A DNA stretch of 64,000 nt from Mycobacteroides immunogenum. GTDB taxonomy: Bacteria > Actinomycetota > Actinomycetes > Mycobacteriales > Mycobacteriaceae. The DNA lies in assembly GCF_001605725.1 (NCBI RefSeq), contig NZ_CP011530.1:2046001-2110000 (forward strand), given 5' to 3'. This document shows positions 91-17,088 of the stretch, in pieces. Within the stretch, counting starts at the first letter, position 1. Each line of letters starts with the position of its first letter. The position numbers and the translations under genes were made by a program. A model generated the notes under the pieces. The model was not told where the DNA came from. It ran no database searches and saw only the letters and a program-made list of their open reading frames with translations.

Positions 91-890
91 CGGTCGGCCA
101 ACCGCTCTTCGGTGGTCTGCGGTGTCCCCGGCTTCACGGCTTTCACGGCGGCGGCCGCGGCCCGGCGCTGCCTGATCTCCGAGAACACGAAGTACCCCAA
201 GCCAATTGGCGCCAGAATCCCGAAGGCGATCCACTGAATGCCGTACGAAAGAAACGGTCCGGCGTCGAGCTGGGGCAGCGGGATCGCGCCCAGACCGCCG
301 GGCTGCCCCTCGGCAAGCTGTAGGTAGGGTCCGGCCAGCGGTGTTTTCAGCAGTGTCGAAACTTGAAGCGGAACAATCGAATACACCTGGTATTGACCGT
401 TCTCCAGGAACGGCGCCTTCTCCGACTGCTGCTCGGGTTCTCGTAGCCGCGCGTTGATGGTGACCTGCCCTGCCGGGGCGGGGGGCACCGGCGGAACGCT
501 GGTGCCCTGCTCGGGCCGCACATAGCCCCGGTCCACCAGAATCGCGGGACCACCGTCTACCTGGAACACCGTCAGCGCCTCATATGCGGGTTTCGCGTCG
601 ACCACGCGTAGCCGCGCCAGTACCTGCTGATCCGGCAGATAGTGACCCGTCGCCGTCACCCGCCGCCACTCCGAATCCTCGGGCATCGAGTGATCGGGCC
701 GCAGCTCGTCTTTCAACGGCACCGGATCGGCGCTCACCGATTGGGCAATGCGGTTGTTCTCGCGCGAAGTCTTGGTGTTCTTGCCCAGCTGCCAGGGGGC
801 CAGCACTGTGAAGCACAGGTACGCGAACGCGACCACCACCAGCGCCAGGGCGATCCAGCCCGGGCGCAGCAGAAACGCGAGCCGCCGCAT
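75..890 (-). CDS. SURF1 family protein (cytochrome oxidase assembly), Rv2235-like
   Basis: 271 residues with the SURF1 layout: an N-terminal membrane helix (about residues 10-32), a central extracytoplasmic domain, and a second helix near the C-terminus (about 212-240) before a basic tail. SURF1 proteins help assemble the aa3-type terminal oxidase, probably heme a insertion. The WQL-----K motif after the first helix is typical of the family. The start ATG shares one base with the ptpA stop (TGATG), so translation is probably coupled to ptpA. The function in mycobacteria is taken from the family. Confidence 0.85.
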   Translation of the reverse strand: MRRLAFLLRPGWIALALVVVAFAYLCFTVLAPWQLGKNTKTSRENNRIAQSVSADPVPLKDELRPDHSMPEDSEWRRVTATGHYLPDQQVLARLRVVDAKPAYEALTVFQVDGGPAILVDRGYVRPEQGTSVPPVPPAPAGQVTINARLREPEQQSEKAPFLENGQYQVYSIVPLQVSTLLKTPLAGPYLQLAEGQPGGLGAIPLPQLDAGPFLSYGIQWIAFGILAPIGLGYFVFSEIRQRRAAAAAVKAVKPGTPQTTEERLADRYGRR

Positions 891-1378
891 CAGCTGTTCT
901 CACGCTCCGCGAGGGCCTGGTCGACCCACTCGTGCAGGCCCGGCATCGCCGCTTCGATGACCTCGAGCGCTTCGACGAAATCCTTGCGGTCGCCGTAGTA
1001 CGGGTCCTCGACGTCCATCGCGGCACGGCCGGCTCGCGGATCGAAGGATCGCAGTAGCCGCACCCGCTCGGGGTCGGCCCCCAGATGCAGCAGCATTCGG
1101 GAGTGATTGCGCGCCAAGGCGATGATCAGATCGGCGCTCAGATGGTCCTCGTCCACCTGGGCGGCGCGGTGCGCCGTCGGATACCCGTGCTCGGCAAGCA
1201 CACTGGCCGCGCGTTCATCGGCGGGTTGCCCGGCATGCCAATCGCCGGTGCCGGCGCTGGTCACCCGGACCCGATCGCCCAGCCCGCGTTCGGCCAGCTG
1301 GTGGGCAAGCATCTTTTCGGCGATGGGGGAACGACAGATGTTTCCGGTGCACACGAAGGTGACATGCAGCTCAGACAT
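890..1378 (-). CDS. ptpA: Low-molecular-weight protein tyrosine phosphatase PtpA
   Basis: 162 residues. The LMW-PTP signature CTGNICRSP is at residues 10-18 (nucleophile C10, phosphate-binding R16), and the general acid Asp with the paired tyrosines is in DPYY at 125-128. In M. tuberculosis the orthologue (Rv2234) is secreted into macrophages and dephosphorylates host VPS33B; whether that holds here is unknown. The start overlaps the end of ptkA by 8 bases and the stop overlaps the SURF1 start, so ptkA-ptpA-SURF1 look like one transcript. Confidence 0.95.
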   Translation of the reverse strand: MSELHVTFVCTGNICRSPIAEKMLAHQLAERGLGDRVRVTSAGTGDWHAGQPADERAASVLAEHGYPTAHRAAQVDEDHLSADLIIALARNHSRMLLHLGADPERVRLLRSFDPRAGRAAMDVEDPYYGDRKDFVEALEVIEAAMPGLHEWVDQALAERENS

Positions 1379-8167: not shown

Positions 8168-8583
8168 GTGAATGGGCGAAGGGCCAGCACATAGATCAGG
8201 ACTACCGCGACCGGCGCAGCCAAGGGTAGCCACGACGATCGTGCTACGGGGATCGCCGCTGCCAGTAGGGCCACGCAACCGAATACCAGCGCGGGCACGA
8301 TCACCTCATATCTGAGGGCGTTGACCTGCGGTGGCCAGCGCAGAGGGTAGGCGGCAAGCAAGTACAACACCGCGGCCAGCCCGCAGAGCATCGTCAACGC
8401 AGGAGAGGGTTCAGTGAAAGCGAGGATGCCGATGACGGCGAGCACAGCCAGCACTGCGAGCGCACGAATCCGAAGGCCAACGACAACCAGTACCGCCGTA
8501 CAGGCCAAGACCACAAGCTCGTCGGCGGCCGCCAACGCCATCAGTAGCCCGAAGACCGCCGCCAACAGCACGCGTGTACTCAT
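8137..8583 (-). CDS. Small integral membrane protein of the MoxR operon
   Basis: 148 residues, four or five hydrophobic helices and almost nothing else; no recognisable catalytic motif. I took the ATG at 8583 because it overlaps the DUF58 stop by four bases (ATGA), like every other junction of this operon; the longer reading frame upstream is the shadow of the DUF58 gene. Last gene of the five-gene unit DUF4129 - membrane protein - MoxR - DUF58 - this one. In M. tuberculosis, moxR loci also contain small membrane proteins. Function unknown. Confidence 0.7.
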   Translation of the reverse strand: MSTRVLLAAVFGLLMALAAADELVVLACTAVLVVVGLRIRALAVLAVLAVIGILAFTEPSPALTMLCGLAAVLYLLAAYPLRWPPQVNALRYEVIVPALVFGCVALLAAAIPVARSSWLPLAAPVAVVLIYVLALRPFTQGSGGAVER

Positions 8584-9809
8584 CGGTGCCGTCCTCTCCG
8601 GGGGCGCCTCGGCAACAGATGCATGGTGTGGTTCAGCCCGGAGTCGTGATTCCAGCCGACTACATCGACGCCCGTGATGGCGATATTGCGGTACATCCGA
8701 GCGCGTTCCAGACGCCACCACCGGGCAACGATGGGATCGGGTTCGTCGCGGAAGGGCAGCCGGTCCAGCACATCGACCACCAGGACCGGATGTCCACGCC
8801 GCCGCAGATCGGTGAGGGCCAGTCCAAAGTCCGCATTCAGAAGAGTGGAGAAGGCCACCACAATCGCGTTGGCAGGTACTGCGGCACGTGGGGCGAGAGC
8901 GCTGATGCTCTGCGAATGCCATTCTCCGGCATCAAGAATGGCGTCAAGAAGCCGATAGAATTGATGACGGCCGATGTCCGGGTTGAGCCACCGCGCAGCA
9001 CTGCCCAGCACGACGACGCCCGCGCGGTCACCGCGCTGCAACACCGACTGGACGAGCTGGGCCGCACCTCGTGCGGACCGCTCGGTTGCCGTGGTCGCCG
9101 GACCAGATGGTTGCGGGTAGGTGTCGATCAACACGACCACATCGGCGGCGCGATCGGTGAGCCGGTCTGTGACGTGCAGGCGCCCCCGCCGCGCGCTGAC
9201 CCGCCAATTGACCGTGCGCAGTGAGTCACCCGGGACGTATTCGCGGATATCGGCGTACTCGACCCCCGGTCCATGATGCCGCGTCAGGTGCGTGCCAATC
9301 CGGTCGGGCAGATCGGCAGGTGGCAGCGCGACATCGTCCGGATCTGCCAACGGGTACACGCGCACCTCCGCCGCGGGCAACCGCATCGGGGCGCCAATCC
9401 ACAGGCCGGACGTCGACACCGTCTGGACCTCAACGGGAATGGTGTAGCGGCCCCATCGCTGAGCACACACCCGCATCGTCAGCTGGTGGGCCGTTCCGCG
9501 CTTGTCCGCATCGATCCGCAGACCCTCGACGTGTGCTGGCCGTAGCCCGTACACCACCGCAGGATCCGTGGCGTGTACCGATGCGGCAATGCTGACTGTC
9601 TCAGATTCCAGGCACCGTAACGGTTCCGGCTCATCGGCAATCCACACCCGGGCATCTGACGGCGGCCGCGCCGCACCGACGAGCACGCCGATGAACGGCG
9701 CCGCGAACACGATCAGCTGCCAGCGTCCCGTCGCCACCGCGATCACCAGCGCGACACCGGCGCACGCGGCAAGTGTCGATATCAGCGGAGAAGCGCGCCA
9801 GGTGATCAT
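8580..9809 (-). CDS. DUF58 domain membrane protein
   Basis: 409 residues. Two membrane helices lie near the N-terminus (about 8-45), followed by a periplasmic or cytosolic beta-rich part and the DUF58 signature GDSLRTVNWRVSARRGRLHV, then a VWA-like alpha/beta domain (VVVLIDTYP). DUF58 proteins accompany MoxR AAA+ ATPases in many bacteria and are thought to be partners or clients of the chaperone. The start ATG 9809 overlaps the MoxR stop (ATGA). Its VWA-like motif keeps a single Asp rather than a full DxSxS metal site. Confidence 0.85.
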   Translation of the reverse strand: MITWRASPLISTLAACAGVALVIAVATGRWQLIVFAAPFIGVLVGAARPPSDARVWIADEPEPLRCLESETVSIAASVHATDPAVVYGLRPAHVEGLRIDADKRGTAHQLTMRVCAQRWGRYTIPVEVQTVSTSGLWIGAPMRLPAAEVRVYPLADPDDVALPPADLPDRIGTHLTRHHGPGVEYADIREYVPGDSLRTVNWRVSARRGRLHVTDRLTDRAADVVVLIDTYPQPSGPATTATERSARGAAQLVQSVLQRGDRAGVVVLGSAARWLNPDIGRHQFYRLLDAILDAGEWHSQSISALAPRAAVPANAIVVAFSTLLNADFGLALTDLRRRGHPVLVVDVLDRLPFRDEPDPIVARWWRLERARMYRNIAITGVDVVGWNHDSGLNHTMHLLPRRPRRGRHR

Positions 9810-10768
9810 CCCGATGCCCTCGGCACCGGCAGCCGATGCAGCAGCTCGTCGACCACGTGTGCCCCGGTGATGCGGCGCACCCACATCTCCGGGCGCAGAC
9901 TGATCCGGTGAGCCACCGCAGGCACCGCCAGCGCTTTGACGTCCTCGGGGATCACGAAATCGCGGCCGAGCAGCATGGCTCTCGCTCGCGACATCTGCAC
10001 CAGATCAAGTTCGGCGCGCGGACTGGCCCCGACCTCGACATGAGAATGGCTGCGTGTCGCGGCCGCCAGCGCCACGATATAGCGCAGGACGTCCGGGTGC
10101 ACCGAAACCTGTTCCACCGCTTCGCGCATCGCGATGAGGTCGTCGGTGGTGATCACCTGCGAAACCATCGGCGGTGCCGATCCCCGGTTCAAACGTCGTT
10201 GCAGCATTTCGATCTCAAGATCTTCGGGCAGGTATCCCAGCTGCAGCCGCGCCGCGAACCGGTCCAGCTGGGCCTCCGGCAGCGGATAGGTTCCCTCGTA
10301 TTCGATCGGGTTGTCCGTCGCCAACACCACAAATGGTGATGGCAGCATGCGTGTTTGACCGTCGATGCTGACCTGGCCCTCCGCCATGGCCTCCAGCAGC
10401 GCGGACTGAGTTTTGGGTGGGGTCCGGTTGATCTCATCTGCCAGAAGGAGATTGGTGAAGATGGGCCCGGTCCGGAACTCGAACAACCCGGACGACATGT
10501 CGTAGATTGTGGAGCCCAAGAGATCGGCGGGCAGCAGATCGGGTGTGAACTGCACCCGTGCGAATTCAAGTCCCAGCGCGGCCGCGAAGGACCGGGCGAT
10601 CAATGTTTTGCCGAGTCCCGGCAGGTCCTCGATCAGAACGTGCCCGCGCGCCAATATGGTGAGCAGAATGAGTTGCAGCGCATCGCGTTTGCCGACAACA
10701 ACACGTTCGATCTCGGTGAGCACCGTGTCGGCGTGCTGACTTGCGACGGAAACCGGAACCGATGTCAC
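9806..10768 (-). CDS. MoxR family AAA+ ATPase
   Basis: 320 residues from GTG 10768, chosen because it overlaps the upstream stop (GTGA). Walker A is EDLPGLGKT (47-55, K54), Walker B is LLLADEIN (D111, E112), and sensor-1 Asn is in VLATDNP; a C-terminal lid domain follows. MoxR ATPases act as chaperones with VWA-domain partners, for example in metal insertion or complex maturation. M. tuberculosis has three (MoxR1-3); this operon resembles the Rv3164c or Rv3692 type by neighbours. The divergently transcribed VWA gene at 12644 is a candidate partner. Confidence 0.92.
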   Translation of the reverse strand: MTSVPVSVASQHADTVLTEIERVVVGKRDALQLILLTILARGHVLIEDLPGLGKTLIARSFAAALGLEFARVQFTPDLLPADLLGSTIYDMSSGLFEFRTGPIFTNLLLADEINRTPPKTQSALLEAMAEGQVSIDGQTRMLPSPFVVLATDNPIEYEGTYPLPEAQLDRFAARLQLGYLPEDLEIEMLQRRLNRGSAPPMVSQVITTDDLIAMREAVEQVSVHPDVLRYIVALAAATRSHSHVEVGASPRAELDLVQMSRARAMLLGRDFVIPEDVKALAVPAVAHRISLRPEMWVRRITGAHVVDELLHRLPVPRASG

Positions 10769-11250
10769 ATCCGCTCCAATCGTTCGAGAATTGATTGCAG
10801 CACCGCGCGGCCGGGGGCGGGCTCCCCGCGGTCTGCATCCGAGGCGCCGTTGGGGTCGACCCAGCGCCAAAGCTCGGGACCGAAGGTCATACGACCGGTC
10901 GCGGTGAGCACGGCGCGGTTCCGTGCCTGCCGGTGCCCGGCGGCCGTCTCGAAATCGGCTGCGATCAGCGGACGAAGCTGGCGGTCCCAATCGCCTCGAG
11001 TGCGTTCGGCCCAGCTGATTCTGGCCTCGGCGCGGGCATGCCACCGGTGCAGGCTCTCATCGGCGGGCAGGCTTGTGGGTGGGGACGGCTTCGGTTCACG
11101 TGGACTGTGCAGGTATCGCCAGAGCAGACACAGCGCGACAGCGACTACTACGGCGGTGATCGGCAGCGTGTATGCCCGCAATGGGCTGGTCGCCACACCC
11201 GCTTCGGTCAAGACGACCATCAGCAACATCGCCGGGGCAAGCCATTTCAT
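10765..11250 (-). CDS. Single-pass or two-pass membrane protein of the MoxR operon
   Basis: 161 residues with two N-terminal hydrophobic segments (about 2-17 and 27-45) and a charged Arg/Glu-rich cytoplasmic C-terminal part. No motif recognised. Both ends overlap the neighbouring genes by four bases (start ATG 11250 with the DUF4129 stop; stop with the MoxR GTG), so it is an integral part of the operon. Comparable proteins sit between DUF4129 and MoxR in other mycobacteria. It may anchor or assemble the MoxR complex, but this is a guess from position. Confidence 0.7.
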   Translation of the reverse strand: MKWLAPAMLLMVVLTEAGVATSPLRAYTLPITAVVVAVALCLLWRYLHSPREPKPSPPTSLPADESLHRWHARAEARISWAERTRGDWDRQLRPLIAADFETAAGHRQARNRAVLTATGRMTFGPELWRWVDPNGASDADRGEPAPGRAVLQSILERLERM

Positions 11251-12164
11251 TGTCGGCTCCGAAGATCGTCCAACACGGCCTGCAGCCATCGCGCCGCGGC
11301 CTGGCGATCGGCCTGTGTCATCTCATGCGGGCTGAAGCGGGCTTCCGAGAACAACGAAACGAGCCGGGTGCCCGCCGCCGATTGGAGAGCGCCGATGTGC
11401 ACAGCGCGCTGCAGAACCTCCGATGGCGTGTCCGAGGCCAGCGGAGCGGCCTCGGGGGCCGCGGTAAGTCCCTGCTCCATCGCCGCATAACAGGCAATGA
11501 TCGATGCGCGCGGATCACGGCCTGGTTCGGCGACCTCCGCGAGGCCGAGTTCCACCAGGTGGGCAAGGGATCGGGACGTTCCGGCCGCGGCCCCTGGCTC
11601 TGCGGATGGGTCGGTCTCAGCATCGGTGTCGTCCGGATCTCGGCGTCTGAGCACGAATACCGCGACGGCAATGCCTCCCAACGCCAGCCCGAGCGCCACC
11701 ATCGGCAGGGCAGGGTCCTGCCGCGGCGAAACTGCGCCCGGGGTATGCGATTCGGCTTCCGGCGCTCGTGGTTCGGAACTGCGGGAGGCGGGCTCGGGCG
11801 GCGGACCGTGCCCTGCCGGGCCGATGAGATGGAGCGATGTCCACACCGTGCCCACCAAAACAAGCACGGTGGCGGCGGCGATGAGGGCTTCGCGGCGAGT
11901 CAGGCCCCGTAGCCGTAGATACGGCGGGCTTTCTTGCGGCAGCGGCAGTTTGGGCCGTCTGCGGCGAAGACTCAACAGTATGACGATGGATATCGCACCG
12001 CACAGCACGAGCTGAAGGGCAATGGAATGAGGTTGAGGTCGAGGTTTCTCGGGCGGGGGAAGTGCCGCGACCTCCGGTAAATAGCTGCGTAGCGCCGCAA
12101 CGGAGAGCACGACCAAGGCGATCAGCCCGGCCGCTCGCAAGAACAGTTTGTCGGCACTGTTCAT
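11247..12164 (-). CDS. DUF4129 domain membrane protein
   Basis: 305 residues, first gene of the MoxR operon. There are four hydrophobic segments (about 8-28, 46-64, 92-110, 150-170) and a C-terminal DUF4129 domain with the pattern IIACYAAMEQGL---DTPSEVLQRA---LVSLFSEARFS. DUF4129 is found fused to transglutaminase-like proteins or alone beside MoxR/DUF58, and probably has a cell-envelope role. The stretch between segments 3 and 4 is Pro/Ser/Glu-rich and probably extracytoplasmic. The promoter is likely in the ~85 bases between its start and the divergent M-box promoter. Confidence 0.8.
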   Translation of the reverse strand: MNSADKLFLRAAGLIALVVLSVAALRSYLPEVAALPPPEKPRPQPHSIALQLVLCGAISIVILLSLRRRRPKLPLPQESPPYLRLRGLTRREALIAAATVLVLVGTVWTSLHLIGPAGHGPPPEPASRSSEPRAPEAESHTPGAVSPRQDPALPMVALGLALGGIAVAVFVLRRRDPDDTDAETDPSAEPGAAAGTSRSLAHLVELGLAEVAEPGRDPRASIIACYAAMEQGLTAAPEAAPLASDTPSEVLQRAVHIGALQSAAGTRLVSLFSEARFSPHEMTQADRQAAARWLQAVLDDLRSRQ

Positions 12165-12214
12165 GCCTCATGGTTGCACGATGACGGGGTTGTGCGCTCC
12201 ACCATTGGCCAACC

Positions 12215-12243
12215 TTGACCGTGATACGTGTGTGGCTTACAGT
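12215..12243 (+). promoter_or_regulatory. Promoter of the M-box leader
   Basis: TTGACC (12215-12220), a 17-base spacer, then TACAGT (12238-12243): a near-consensus housekeeping promoter, unusual for mycobacteria in having a good -35. Transcription would begin near 12250, just before the riboswitch P1 strand. Confidence 0.6.
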
Positions 12244-12249
12244 TCGGCT

Positions 12250-12420
12250 GTTAGCACCTCGCTAGGCGAGGCTCCTGCGCGAACATAGGCCACTGATCCG
12301 ACGACGTCGAGAGACGCCCAGGGTTAGGACAGATCTCCCCGGCCTAAGGGGTGATCCGAAGTGGCTTCCGGTGTAGCCGGATTACGTCGCGTAGTGCCGA
12401 AGCTCTGACGAGAGAGGTGT
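12250..12420 (+). promoter_or_regulatory. M-box magnesium riboswitch (ykoK leader)
   Basis: The region carries the conserved M-box blocks in order: CTAGGCGAGGCTCCTG (12262-12277), AACATAGGCCACTG, GAGACGCCCAGGGTTAGGAC (12310-12329), AAGGGGTGATCC with AAGTGGCT, and GTAGTGCCGAAGCTCTGACG (12391-12410). P1 can form between CACCTC (12255-12260) and GAGGTG (12414-12419). M-box RNAs fold compactly on binding Mg2+ and usually switch genes off when magnesium is plentiful. The downstream MgtA-type ATPase is exactly the expected target. In M. tuberculosis, M-boxes precede Rv1535 and the PE20/mgtC operon; here the target is a VWA protein plus MgtA. Confidence 0.92.
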
Positions 12421-12423
12421 AAG

Positions 12424-12458
12424 CCGGTTCTCAGTTATGAGATCGGTTTCCTTCTTTT
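12424..12458 (+). terminator. Intrinsic-terminator-like hairpin, riboswitch expression platform
   Basis: CCG (12424-12426) pairs with CGG (12444-12446) and TCTCA (12429-12433) with TGAGA (12438-12442) around a GTTA loop, followed directly by TTTCCTTCTTTT. It begins five bases after the P1 strand. GAGA within 12410-12416 could alternatively pair with the TCTC arm, giving an antiterminator that P1 formation would remove. The stem is modest, so Rho-assisted or translational control is also possible. Confidence 0.6.
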
Positions 12459-12510
12459 CGCGGGCACGCCTGGTGATGTGATGAAGACGGCGCGATGCGT
12501 CCTGGCGTGA
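12437..12510 (+). other. Two short overlapping upstream reading frames in the leader
   Basis: ATG 12437 opens a 14-codon frame ending at TGA 12479-12481, whose last base is the A of ATG 12481, opening a 9-codon frame that ends at 12510. Neither has a strong ribosome site. They lie between the terminator-like hairpin and the Shine-Dalgarno of the leader peptide and might be fortuitous. Confidence 0.25.
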
Positions 12511-12528
12511 AGGAGGTGAGGGGACGGT

Positions 12529-12600
12529 ATGACGTCCGGCGGAAGTCCATATCACAGTACTTATTTCCCAACAGCCTCCTGGACCCGGCGTAGTTCGTAA
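12529..12600 (+). CDS. Putative 23-residue leader peptide in the M-box transcript
   Basis: ATG 12529 to TAA 12600. It is preceded at nine bases by AGGAGGTGA (12511-12519), a perfect match to the 16S anti-Shine-Dalgarno, far better than the site before the VWA gene, so ribosomes should load here. The peptide has the pattern M-T-S-G-G-S-P-Y-H and ends with W-T-R-R-S-S. CCTCCT inside the frame (12575-12580) can pair with AGGAGG of its own ribosome site (12511-12516). E. coli mgtA also carries a leader peptide (mgtL) but the sequence is unrelated. A regulatory role is inferred. Confidence 0.5.
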   Translation: MTSGGSPYHSTYFPTASWTRRSS

Positions 12601-12643
12601 CCGGTTTGCGAGGCTGGATTTCGTGTGAGAAAGCAGCCTTGCC

Positions 12644-13648
12644 ATGAACATCCCGTTTTTCGGGCCGATGACGCTATCGGGTTTCACCCATCCGTGGTTC
12701 TTCCTGGTACTGCTACTGGTCCTCACATTGGGCGCGTTATACGTTGCGGCACAACGACTACGTCACAAACGGGTGCTGCGATTCGCCAACACCGAGCTGC
12801 TCGATTCGGTGGCCCCACAACGTCCACGTCTGTGGCGCCACACCTCCGCGGCACTACTGCTGACCGGGTTGATCGTTCTCACCATTGCGCTGGCCGGGCC
12901 GACCCACGATGTACGAATTCCTCGCAACCGGGCCGTCGTCATGTTGGTGATCGATGTCTCGCCGTCCATGCAATCCACCGATGTCACGCCCACGCGGTTG
13001 GCTGCCGCCCAAGAGGCCGCCAAAGGGTTCGCCCAGAACCTCACCTCTGGAATTAACCTGGGACTGATAGCTTTTGGTGGTACGTCGACGATATTGGTAT
13101 CGCCCACCACCAATCATGGGGCGACCGTGGACGCCATCGGGAAGCTGCAATTCATCGAACGCACCGGCACCGGTGAGGCTATCTTCACGGCACTTCAAGC
13201 AATAGCCACCGTGGGAGCGGTGATAGGGGGCGACAACAAGGCACCCGCGCGCATTGTCCTGATGTCTGACGGTAAGGAAACCGTGCCGTCCAATCCGGAC
13301 AACCCCAAGGGCTGCTACACCGCCGCCCGAACCGCGAAAGAACAAGGCGTGCCGATCTCGACCATTGCCTTCGGAACCGCCGACGGCACCGTCGACATCA
13401 ATGGGCAACGCCAACCGGTGCCGTGGGCGCCGGACATGATGGCCAAGGTCGCCGAGCTGTCCGGTGGCGAAACCTACTCGGCCTCATCGGTGGGTGAGCT
13501 CAAACAGGTGTACGCATCACTGCAACAGCAGATCGGATACGAGACCATCAAGGGCGACGCCAGTGCAAGCTGGGTGCGACTCGAAGGATTGCTCATACTG
13601 GCAGCGGCTTTTACCGGGCTGCTCCTCAACCGCCGCCTTCCCAACTAG
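12644..13648 (+). CDS. VWA domain membrane protein, Rv1481-like
   Basis: 334 residues: N-terminal helices at about 14-36 and 68-86, a VWA domain (about 95-295), and a C-terminal helix (about 314-330). The metal-ion-dependent adhesion site is complete: DVSPS (D104, S106, S108), a Thr in ERTGTGEA (about 173-177) and D209 in MSDG. It is strikingly similar to M. tuberculosis Rv1481, the VWA partner encoded after moxR1 and Rv1480. Here it instead follows an M-box leader and is four bases upstream of an MgtA-type ATPase. Ribosome site before ATG 12644 is weak, which leaves room for coupling to the leader peptide. Confidence 0.88.
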
Positions 13649-13652
13649 CCAG

Positions 13653-16295
13653 ATGCGTAACGAGGACATGATGATCAGTGATGGCTGCGGGCGCCTGCGA
13701 GAGTTGAGCACTGCGCCATTACCCACAGTTTTTGACGAGATCTCTGGATCTCCGGATGGTCTTACCGAGAGGGAGGCCGCCGACCGCCTCCACCACTTCG
13801 GGGATAACCGCCAGACTTCTGCTTCCGAGGAAGGGTTCGTGGCGGGCCTTCGCGCATCCTTGCGGAGTCCATTCCTGGCGCTGCTGGCTGGTTTGTGTGT
13901 GGTCTTCGTGCTCGTCGGAGATCGCAAGGCGGCCGCGACCATCGCGGCAATGATCGTGCTGGCGGTCGCGCTGCGCCTATGGCAGCGGACCCGTTCGATG
14001 CGGGCGATCCGAGGTGTGCGTGAGTTGGTGACGGCGACGGCAACGGTGTGCCGGCGGGCCGATGAGCAGGCGCCATCTGTCGCGTGCGAAGTCCCGGTTG
14101 CCGAGCTGGTCCCAGGAGATGTGGTGATACTTGGCCCCGGTGATGTGGTGGCGGCAGATGTACGGATCGTGTCGGCGACCGACCTGGTGATCGACCAATC
14201 GGCGATGACGGGCGAATCGCTGCCGGTATACAAGGACGCCACTGCGAGACAGCGCCGTGTGCGAGGGGTGGCCGCGGTCGTCGATTCCGCGAACCTGTGC
14301 CTGTGCGGCACGACAGTGGTGGCGGGAGCGGCTACCGGGGTTGTCGTCGCCACCGGGATTCGCACCTACGCCGGCGCGCTGGCTAGCCACGCTGCTGACC
14401 CGCGGTCGGAATCCAGCTTCGATCAAGGGGTTCGGGCGGTCAGCTGGACGCTCATTCGTTTCATGCTGGTGATGGTGCCCATTGTGTTCGCGGTGAACGG
14501 AGTGGTGAGCGGCGCCTGGGGGCAGGCCGCCATGTTCGCGGTGGCGGTTGCGGTTGGTTTGACGCCGGAAATGTTACCGGTGATCGTCACCACCAATCTG
14601 GCGCGCGGCGCCGTGCTGCTGGCGCGCGAACGAGTAGTTATTCGTCGCCTCAACGCAATTCAAGATCTTGGAGCGATGGATGTGCTGTGTATCGACAAAA
14701 CCGGAACCCTGACCGAGGACCGGGTTGTCTACGCGCACAGCGTGGATGTGACCGGGCATATCGATGAAACCGCCAGTGAGTTGGCCTACCTTGCCACGCA
14801 CTTTCAGGCCGGACCCCACAGCCGACTCGACCGGGCCATCGCGCAGTGGGCGGACGAGGAACAGATGGGGGTCGTCGCGGAAGCGGCGTACACCGGGTTC
14901 GCCGAGATCGCCCCGGAGCGGTCGCGCCGGAAACAGACAGTGGTCGTCTCCCGCCTGCACGGTGAGCACATCCTGCTCTGCAAGGGTCACCCCGATGAGG
15001 TACTGCCGTACTGCACCCGGGCCCGGGTGGGCGACGACGTCGTCGGCTTTCACGATGAGTTGAAATCCGAAGCTCGCGACCTGATCTGCGCGTATCGAAA
15101 GCGTGGGATGCAAGTGATGGCCGTGGCGGCCAGGAGCCGCCCGGCGCGCACGGGGCAGTATCAGGTGACGGACGAAAACGACCTTGTCCTAGTGGGTTTC
15201 GTGGGGTTCGTCGACCCGGTTCGCGCCAGCGCGTCCTGCGCGGTGACGAGCTTGTCGCGGCACGGCGTCCGGGTGAAAATCTTGACCGGCGACGACGGAC
15301 ACGTCGCTGCGCAGGTGGCGACGCAGGTCGGAGTGGCCTGTGACCGCGTCATCCGCGGAAAACAGATCGACAAACTCGGTGACACCCGCCTGCAGGCGGT
15401 CGCGACGCAGACAGATGTGTTCGCCGAGCTGACTCCCGGGCACAAGGCGCGTATCGTCGCCGCGCTGCGGGAAGCGGGATGTGCCGTCGGCTTCCTCGGT
15501 GATGGGGTCAATGACGTTGCGGCCCTGCGCCTTGCCGATGCCAGCATTGCCCCCGATACCGCGACCGGCGCGGCCAAGCAGGCTGCCGATCTCATCCTGC
15601 TGGACAAGGATCTGTCGGTGATCGCACGCGCAGTCATCGAGGGGCGGCGCACGCTGGCCAACACCATGAAATACGTCACGATCACCGCCAGCTCAAACTT
15701 CGGCAATGTCTTGTCCGTCATGGCCGCCAGCGTGCTCTTGCCGTTTCTGCCGATGCTGCCCGGCCAGCTGATGATGCAAAACTTGCTCTATGACATCGCC
15801 CAGCTCGCGCTGCCGTGGGACCGAGTAGATCCCGAGTACCTGCGCCGCCCGCGGCGCTGGCAGTCCAGCGGCATGGTCCCGTTCATGCTGATCTTTGGTG
15901 CGCTCAGTTCGCTGTTCGACCTGGTTACTTTCGCCGTGCTGTGGTGGGCATGTGGCGGTAGCGATTCGCCGTCAGTGTTTCAAACCGGTTGGTTTGTCGA
16001 GGGATTGCTCACGCAGCTGGCAGTCGTACTCGTCTTGCGGTCACGCACCCTGCCCTGGCGCAGGCCGCGACCGGCCCCGGTTGTCGTGCTCAGCGCGATG
16101 GCCGTAGCCATTGTCGGCGCTCTGTTGCCGTTCTGTCCGTTGGCGGAACCCCTCCAGATGACGGCTCCGCCAGTGGCTTATCTGCTGTGGCTTGCCGTCG
16201 TGGTAACCGCTTACGCGGCCGCGGCGTATGTGGTGAAGCGGTGGTATCTACGCCGCCGAGTCACGAATAGGTGCCCTCAGGAATCATGTTGGTGA
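13653..16295 (+). CDS. mgtA: MgtA-type magnesium-importing P-type ATPase
   Basis: 880 residues. Actuator TGES at 186-189, transmembrane GLTPEMLP (302-309), phosphorylation motif DKTGTLT (D348), hinge GDGVNDVAALRLADA, and the MgtA-specific stretch PFLPMLPGQ---NLLYDIAQ---P-DRVD. The P3B class imports Mg2+. Placement downstream of an M-box agrees: transcription should rise when Mg2+ is scarce. The start ATG 13653 is four bases after the VWA stop, with alternatives at 13668 and 13671 that have a slightly better ribosome site. Stop overlaps the convergent VOC gene by 35 bases. The product could in principle carry another divalent metal, but motif and riboswitch both point to Mg2+. Confidence 0.9.
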   Translation: MRNEDMMISDGCGRLRELSTAPLPTVFDEISGSPDGLTEREAADRLHHFGDNRQTSASEEGFVAGLRASLRSPFLALLAGLCVVFVLVGDRKAAATIAAMIVLAVALRLWQRTRSMRAIRGVRELVTATATVCRRADEQAPSVACEVPVAELVPGDVVILGPGDVVAADVRIVSATDLVIDQSAMTGESLPVYKDATARQRRVRGVAAVVDSANLCLCGTTVVAGAATGVVVATGIRTYAGALASHAADPRSESSFDQGVRAVSWTLIRFMLVMVPIVFAVNGVVSGAWGQAAMFAVAVAVGLTPEMLPVIVTTNLARGAVLLARERVVIRRLNAIQDLGAMDVLCIDKTGTLTEDRVVYAHSVDVTGHIDETASELAYLATHFQAGPHSRLDRAIAQWADEEQMGVVAEAAYTGFAEIAPERSRRKQTVVVSRLHGEHILLCKGHPDEVLPYCTRARVGDDVVGFHDELKSEARDLICAYRKRGMQVMAVAARSRPARTGQYQVTDENDLVLVGFVGFVDPVRASASCAVTSLSRHGVRVKILTGDDGHVAAQVATQVGVACDRVIRGKQIDKLGDTRLQAVATQTDVFAELTPGHKARIVAALREAGCAVGFLGDGVNDVAALRLADASIAPDTATGAAKQAADLILLDKDLSVIARAVIEGRRTLANTMKYVTITASSNFGNVLSVMAASVLLPFLPMLPGQLMMQNLLYDIAQLALPWDRVDPEYLRRPRRWQSSGMVPFMLIFGALSSLFDLVTFAVLWWACGGSDSPSVFQTGWFVEGLLTQLAVVLVLRSRTLPWRRPRPAPVVVLSAMAVAIVGALLPFCPLAEPLQMTAPPVAYLLWLAVVVTAYAAAAYVVKRWYLRRRVTNRCPQESCW

Positions 16296-16644
16296 TGCAG
16301 AACGGGTGACCGGCCGGGTCGACCAGTACCCGCCATCCGCTCGGGTTCGGCTGCGTCTCGGCCTTGGTCGCCCCCAACCCGAGGATGCGAGCCTCTTCGG
16401 CATCCAGGTCGGCCGCGGCCAGCTCGAGGTGCAGCTGTTTCGGTACCGCACCTTCTGGCCACTGCGGCGGTTGATGGTCTGCCACCCGCTGGAAAGTGAG
16501 CAGCACGGCGGCGCCCTTCAGCGCGGTAAATTGCTCGCTTTCGAACAATATCTCCAGGTCAAGGACCTGCTGATAAAACCTGGCCAGTGCTGCCGGATCC
16601 GCACAGTCGATCGATATCGCGCCGAGTCGAGCCTTTGTCGTCAT
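16261..16644 (-). CDS. VOC superfamily (glyoxalase-like) protein
   Basis: 127 residues with two beta-alpha-beta-beta-beta modules: the first begins LGAISIDCADPAALARFYQQVLDL, the second HLELAAADLDAEEARILGLGA and ends with WRVLVDPAGHPFCIT. Mycobacterial genomes encode many such single-domain proteins, mostly without known substrate. The metal site is not obviously complete (one clear His at HLEL, one Glu/His at the C-terminus missing), so enzymatic activity is uncertain. Lone gene between mgtA (convergent) and RNase P RNA. Confidence 0.75.
   Translation of the reverse strand: MTTKARLGAISIDCADPAALARFYQQVLDLEILFESEQFTALKGAAVLLTFQRVADHQPPQWPEGAVPKQLHLELAAADLDAEEARILGLGATKAETQPNPSGWRVLVDPAGHPFCITNMIPEGTYS

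Positions 16645-16679: not shown

Positions 16680-17088
<409 letters not shown>

Follow-up and report, generated by a model that had tools for sequence, protein, structure and literature searches.

An M-box leader of the mycobacterial uORF2 type before a VWA gene and mgtA in Mycobacteroides immunogenum

We found a genuine M-box riboswitch with a uORF2-type mycobacterial expression platform in M. immunogenum, where it heads an unusual regulated unit made of a VWA gene and mgtA. Judged by comparison with related chromosomes, the promoter–M-box–uORF2–VWA–mgtA unit is a 4.1-kb insertion, which is seen in two species and is new here. This member of the M-box family probably controls a self-contained magnesium-uptake unit through translational masking of the second Shine–Dalgarno site (SD2), uORF2 and Rho; Mg2+ binding, the direction of switching, Rho dependence and cotranscription at the M. 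immunogenum locus are what we infer. The features below are numbered within the window, that is, the whole 64-kb stretch of DNA that was analysed.

12181..16259 (+): inserted cassette with promoter, M-box, uORF2, VWA and mgtA, delimited by blastn breaks against five relatives
12215..12243 (+): promoter-like pair TTGACC - 17 - TACAGT, from a pattern scan; TTGAC is common in leaders of the genus
12251..12423 (+): M-box riboswitch aptamer (RF00380, 142.5 bits, E 3.5e-32)
12410..12419 (+): SD1 or anti-anti-SD, GAGAGAGGTG, forming P1 as its 3' strand and competing for the pyrimidine tract, with downstream pairing predicted in 117/117 leaders
12424..12446 (+): hairpin hp1, formerly read as a terminator stem; -10.0 kcal/mol, equally probable in both states
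12447..12459 (+): pyrimidine tract, TTTCCTTCTTTTC, proposed anti-SD from folding and a core motif, formerly read as a U-tract
12510..12521 (+): SD2, AAGGAGGTGAGG, predicted ribosome-binding site of uORF2
12529..12600 (+): uORF2, MTSGGSPYHSTYFPTASWTRRSS, 23 codons, resembling Rv1805A (conserved Pro7), behind a strong SD, GGAGG at 12512
12644..13648 (+): gene for a VWA/BatA-type membrane protein (PRK13685, 543.8 bits against 432; DVSPS motif)
13653..16295 (+), ATG to stop end: mgtA, magnesium-translocating P-type ATPase (TIGR01524, 907.2 bits against 610.75)

The M-box and the genes behind it

The RF00380 match covers the full length of the model (1-169 of 169) and far exceeds the gathering score of 44, so the M-box that a sequence-only reading had placed here is confirmed. 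The promoter-like pair which that reading had noted upstream is also present, and it is the only pair of its type in 12100-12750, where shuffled sequences give a mean of 0.2. Of the 118 genus leaders that have a full 50-base upstream stretch, 116 show TTGAC at -48..-26 relative to the aptamer. A TANNNT -10 element is as frequent in the 118 leaders as in shuffles (12 vs 12), because the genus has approximately CAnnAT as its -10 consensus where M. immunogenum has TACAGT. These leaders come from a collection of 119 M-box loci, comprising the M. immunogenum locus, 32 + 80 further genus loci, one of M. franklinii (strain CV002, L034) and five linked to mgtA; low-scoring M-boxes are under-represented in it because it consists mainly of best-scoring matches, and the counts out of 118 and 117 leave out one locus (L015). 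Under strict filters, which lose weak matches, RF00380 was present in 130/248 genomes of the genus, 72/301 of the family and 27/298 of the order. Two more M-boxes exist in the M. immunogenum genome; a short uORF lies behind both, and next comes a gene for an MgtE_N protein (L001) in one case and for an Nramp protein in the other.

The VWA protein carries the DxSxS metal site as DVSPS, and its PRK13685 family is, we assume, that of Rv1481. A second VWA copy, 78% identical, lies elsewhere in the genome (G000:C1:2991802-2992803), and the cassette copy groups with Mycobacteroides copies (100/100) on a long branch of a tree whose bootstrap is not settled. MgtA has the P-type motifs DKTG, TGES and GDGVND, and the gap from the VWA stop codon to the mgtA ATG is just four bases. 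A gene order of VWA followed by mgtA had been proposed and is indeed found; the VWA gene is not the first cistron, however, since uORF2 precedes it, and mgtA is the third ORF 3' of the M-box on the same strand. Among the 119 loci, a VWA gene lies 3' of the M-box only in M. immunogenum and M. franklinii (1500 bases covered in 116 loci, L015 excepted).

uORF2, the missed first cistron

The uORF2 peptide starts with MTSGGSP, so that, as in the pe20-type leader, a short uORF with Pro7 stands behind SD2; M. immunogenum reads GGSP where GDSP or SDSP is usual. In PMC12810186, uORF2 (Rv1805A) with its proline at position 7 is described as highly conserved in mycobacterial M-box leaders. In our collection the strict motif is present in 102 of the 119 leaders (101 by script plus L015, with SD). 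Of the 17 leaders that lack it, several carry recognisable variants in which other residues stand, and L172 has no SD2. The motif together with an SD was found in 100/118 leaders, against a shuffle mean of 0.5 (at most 2), and irrespective of an SD in 101/118, against 7.3 in shuffles. Pfam and NCBIfam gave no match for uORF2. PMC12810186 calls the peptide mycobacteria-specific; vcgB of Rhodococcus equi had already been named in PMC4974804. We found the strict motif with SD also in 22 of 65 M-box leaders of other genera or families (shuffle mean 0.1), spread over nine genera, and a looser motif in 42/65, a count made without a control.

The codons of the uORF2 start are unusually constant. The serine of the motif (12544-12546 in M. 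immunogenum) is encoded by AGT in 113 of 114 distinct genes (92/93 in the genus, 21/21 in others), against 6/344 for the later serines of the same ORFs (4/305 and 2/39) and 13/167 for the serine codons of six genes in the window. The tyrosine in the next codon is mostly TAT across the leaders. Shared ancestry may explain part of the AGT constancy; neighbouring codons vary, however. No conserved RNA structure was detected in uORF2 by RNAalifold (0.0, 57 representatives), a weak test, since column-shuffled controls also gave 0.0. Leader-peptide sensing in the style of mgtL was considered as well, and the absence of acidic residues from the M. immunogenum uORF2 speaks against it. Selection on the start of uORF2 could act chiefly on codons or RNA letters rather than on the peptide, and this start could serve as a second, tandem Mg2+ sensor in which slow or unstable ribosomes gate Rho in the enterobacterial leader-peptide manner, across mycobacteria and related genera; we hold this idea to be a long shot.

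Base composition singles out uORF2 within the leader. The C/G ratio is 0.39-0.80 in 60-base windows starting at 12424-12504, and 1.38, 1.82, 1.06 and 0.75 in the next ones, the two highest starting at 12524 and 12544, which makes uORF2 the C-rich part of 12424-12643. Such a C-rich stretch would suit Rho loading when it is untranslated. In the family as a whole, the median C/G ratio is 1.13 for the linker, which is thus not G-rich there, and 1.32 for uORF2.

The expression platform and its alternatives

The names SD1 and anti-anti-SD follow PMC12810186, and that paper demonstrates the SD1/anti-SD/SD2 design experimentally for the M-box of M. tuberculosis pe20. Transferred to M. immunogenum, the design would work as follows. 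With ample Mg2+, the aptamer would close P1 and hide SD1, leaving the pyrimidine tract free to pair with SD2, so that uORF2 would stay untranslated; Rho would then load on the unprotected C-rich uORF2 RNA, and transcription would end before VWA-mgtA. With little Mg2+, P1 would open and SD1 would capture the pyrimidine tract in a helix enclosing hp1, which would free SD2 for translation of uORF2 and let transcription proceed into VWA and mgtA. The OFF switch assumed in the sequence-only reading is supported by analogy to published M-boxes.

Across the family, predicted folding supports such switching. Each of the 117 leaders is predicted to form 6 or more pairs between SD1 and RNA downstream, around hp1 (68% of shuffled linkers), and 112 of them form 8 or more (52% of shuffled linkers); the fold energy has a median 1.67 SD below shuffles, falling below -2 in 42/117. 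A pyrimidine core (CTCC, CCTC, TTCC or CCTT) was found at +8..+60 in 108/117 leaders, and a GGAGG-type SD2-like site in 117 of 118 usable ones, L172 being the leader without SD2. Among the 56 leaders with a non-majority SD1, 49 have a linker that their own SD1 stabilises more than foreign SD1 strands do on average, and the other seven, including L165 and L220, contradict the pairing; in four related mgtA leaders (L160-L162, L164) an altered SD1 is matched by a fitting altered tract. We also computed for 117 leaders how exposed SD2 is when the P1 strand is blocked or free. Opening of P1 raised the mean from 0.304 to 0.388 with 45 nt of 3' sequence, a gain of +0.084 that exceeds all 40 shuffled sets (0.002-0.047), with gains above 0.02 in 72/117. 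The mean gains at 20, 70 and 110 nt (0.198, 0.134 and 0.052) each exceed their 12 shuffled sets. The energy of a direct anti-SD:SD2 duplex was dropped as a test of switching, as it is no better than in shuffled linkers (median z 0.3 in the family, 0.4 in M. immunogenum).

For the M. immunogenum leader alone, the prediction of SD2 masking by the anti-SD is ambiguous. SD1 makes 12 predicted downstream pairs at a fold-energy z of -3.2 (-0.5 in M. franklinii), a pairing that depends on the transcript end chosen, and the leader's own SD1 is no better than 39% of foreign ones. The freed strand GAGAGAGG pairs with UUCCUUCUUUUC around hp1 in transcripts ending at 12459 (-21.5 vs -12.7 kcal/mol) and 12600, whereas the open-state minimum-energy fold of a transcript ending at 12545 leaves SD1 unpaired, the tract being engaged with the SD2 region. 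On opening of P1, predicted SD2 exposure changes from 0.30 to 0.33 with 20 nt of 3' sequence, from 0.22 to 0.46 with 45 nt and from 0.17 to 0.26 with 70 nt, and is reversed, from 0.29 to 0.23, with 110 nt; under another cut it goes from 0.29 to 0.37 (end 12545) and from 0.19 to 0.20 (end 12600). The M. franklinii values are 0.08 to 0.60, 0.07 to 0.46, 0.22 to 0.22 and 0.35 to 0.16 for the same four lengths. A CCTCC within uORF2 can compete for SD2. The favoured reading also meets a difficulty in M. tuberculosis, where the main mapped 3' ends lie upstream of uORF2 (PMC12810186), a poor fit to Rho acting only once translation of uORF2 has failed.

The sequence-only reading had instead proposed a transcriptional M-box of the ykoK kind, in which hp1 and the tract behind it would terminate transcription at high Mg2+ and an antiterminator, formed by a GAGA/TCTC pairing, would take over at low Mg2+. 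The hairpin and the tract after P1 are present, with TTTCCTTCTTTT directly 3' of hp1 (12447-12458), and the stability of hp1 is what a terminator stem could use. Of the 8 bases that follow hp1, 5 or more are T in 5/117 leaders, M. immunogenum and M. franklinii among them, and M. immunogenum is one of three that also show a run of 3 or more T; in the 117 leaders as a whole these 8 bases are 42% C and 35% T. The switching part of the proposal is not supported, however. At three transcript ends hp1 has a mean pair probability of 0.92-0.93 with the 3' strand of P1 either free or blocked (0.93 in both states for the end at 12459), and thus shows none of the mutual exclusion expected of a terminator/antiterminator pair. 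The GAGA/TCTC antiterminator was rejected for this reason, and in transcripts ending at 12459 and 12600 the freed strand is predicted to pair around hp1 and not with the UCUC inside it. An intrinsic-terminator scan of 12100-12750 listed two sites, and hp1 with its C-interrupted tract is not among them. By aligned-base identity hp1 is moreover the least conserved stretch of the leader, with 9/23 bases kept in M. franklinii, where its energy is -7.9 kcal/mol against -12.9 for M. immunogenum under the same cut. The supposed U-tract sits where other mycobacterial leaders have the pyrimidine anti-SD, and PMC12810186 ties neither M-box termination site of M. tuberculosis to a canonical intrinsic terminator. 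Taken with the T-rich tract, these findings leave the terminator unlikely.

A switch by Rho only, in which the Mg2+-bound leader exposes pyrimidine- or C-rich loading sites and SD2 masking is irrelevant, seems to us slightly less likely still. The authors of PMC12810186 raised it for pe20, and a C/G ratio above 1.2 over 78 nt from about the uORF2 start, found in 77/117 leaders, would suit it; it leaves unexplained, however, both the pairing of SD1 with the anti-SD and the conservation of SD2 and uORF2. It is also conceivable that the aptamer stayed intact and the platform decayed after transfer, with VWA-mgtA expressed constitutively from the TTGACC promoter, as the ambiguous SD2 prediction and the GGSP variant might suggest. 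We regard such decay as improbable, the least probable of these readings, since the comparison with M. franklinii shows 170/173 letters of the aptamer, 12/13 of the pyrimidine tract, 23/23 of the SD2 region (12506-12528) and 68/72 of uORF2 identical, with hp1 changed. The spacer before the VWA gene is 35/43 identical, with 48 gap columns.

Insertion, distribution and meaning

The unit arrived by insertion between a glyoxalase-like gene and a DUF4129/MoxR operon. We located the corresponding region of five Mycobacteroides relatives (L282-L286) through the glyoxalase-like gene and compared stretches of about 11 kb, in which tblastn (E 1e-8) found neither VWA nor mgtA. The blastn alignments break at 12171-12186 on the left (4/5 relatives) and at 16251-16260 on the right (5/5), and the last mgtA codons reach past this right-hand break. 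Less than 50 bp lie between the glyoxalase-like gene and DUF4129 in L282 and L283, against 4.1 kb in M. immunogenum; L284-L286 have other spacings. The GC content of the cassette is 62.9%, against 65.8-66.1% around it. No direct or inverted repeats of 8-14 bases were found between 12151-12260 and 16221-16300. Megablast matched 13 plasmid records, but 80% coverage of the cassette is reached by none of them, and among the ten listed the highest coverage is 2%.

The neighbouring operon at 8580-12164 (-) consists of genes for a DUF58 protein, a MoxR-type AAA protein, a small membrane protein and a DUF4129 protein, and it adjoins the glyoxalase-like gene in two relatives without the cassette. The case for a functional partnership of the VWA protein with this operon is weakened, because the operon is where the cassette was inserted and, in relatives lacking the cassette, is a direct neighbour of the glyoxalase-like gene. 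In one relative, M. chelonae S00154 (L285), the 11-kb stretch yielded no DUF58, MoxR or small membrane protein gene and only part of DUF4129, possibly as a result of deletion. A class A bacterial RNase P RNA (300.4 bits) lies at 16682-17086 (+), just 3' of the cassette and the glyoxalase-like gene.

An M-box before mgtA is not peculiar to this locus. Among M. immunogenum and the 20 next-best mgtA matches in 248 genus genomes, with about 5 kb upstream of each, an M-box precedes mgtA at 7/21 loci (M. immunogenum, L146, L160, L161, L162, L164 and L165). One of the 14 loci without an M-box, L148, has ArsR-type and MgtC-type neighbours. At 5/21 loci a VWA gene lies beside mgtA, in line in M. immunogenum and L146 and divergent in L147, L150 and L163. 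No M-box at gathering score was found near the divergent VWA/mgtA of these last three loci; the VWA protein of L163 is only 48-52% identical, and the L147 locus runs on into MgtE_N and Nramp genes. The adjacency of VWA and mgtA in loci without an M-box supports a VWA–MgtA link independent of the riboswitch. Some 600-700 bases with only a doubtful ORF separate VWA and mgtA at L147:4189-4916 and in the matching gap of L150, where another leader may lie. In L158:5001-7441 (genome G109), mgtA is read in two frames.

Outside the genus, the family search gave 12 mgtA matches in four other Mycobacteriaceae genera (L258-L269). They resemble M. immunogenum in having an M-box upstream on the same strand (12/12) and a short SD-led ORF (11/12), whereas their mgtA is about 39-45% identical, no VWA gene was found in their flanks of about 1.5 kb, and several of their leaders have a different uORF start (DDPPSRY or DEPPSRY). 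Two of these loci have paired divergent M-boxes, about 230-245 bases apart, one of them before mgtA: L261 at 441-614(-) and 859-1032(+), and L263 at 462-635(-) and 862-1035(+). Each M-box of the pairs is followed by a short uORF of a different type.

Among characterized systems, the M. tuberculosis pe20 (Rv1806) and Rv1535 leaders are the nearest in design, with an aptamer, SD1 at its end, a pyrimidine anti-SD, SD2 and a uORF2 with Pro7 (PMC12810186). The M. immunogenum unit differs from them in its targets, VWA and mgtA rather than PE/PPE-mgtC or Rv1535, in the GGSP of its uORF2 and in a tract after hp1 that is U-richer than in most of the 117 leaders. The mgtE gene (MAB_2717c) of the close relative M. 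abscessus likewise has an M-box and a short uORF before a Mg2+ transporter, and, according to PMC4974804, this uORF is translated, being ribosome-protected, and is homologous to Rhodococcus equi vcgB. The M. immunogenum L001 locus has the same M-box, uORF and MgtE_N order, and the unit described here differs from that of M. abscessus in transporter class and operon. With Bacillus subtilis ykoK it shares the aptamer family RF00380, but the alternative pairing required for an intrinsic terminator like that of ykoK (PMC12810186) is not supported in M. immunogenum. Our literature searches listed no paper that names an M-box–VWA–mgtA unit in its title or the start of its abstract.

In this locus of a rapid-growing mycobacterium, a magnesium riboswitch has reached a new place in the chromosome along with the complete unit under its control, and a VWA/BatA-type membrane protein is linked to a magnesium pump. 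M-box leaders of several other genera also contain uORF2, which PMC12810186 calls mycobacteria-specific, and its codons are under an unexplained constraint. If the translational reading is true, the M-box leader family would offer one tractable model of a riboswitch, a uORF and Rho acting together.
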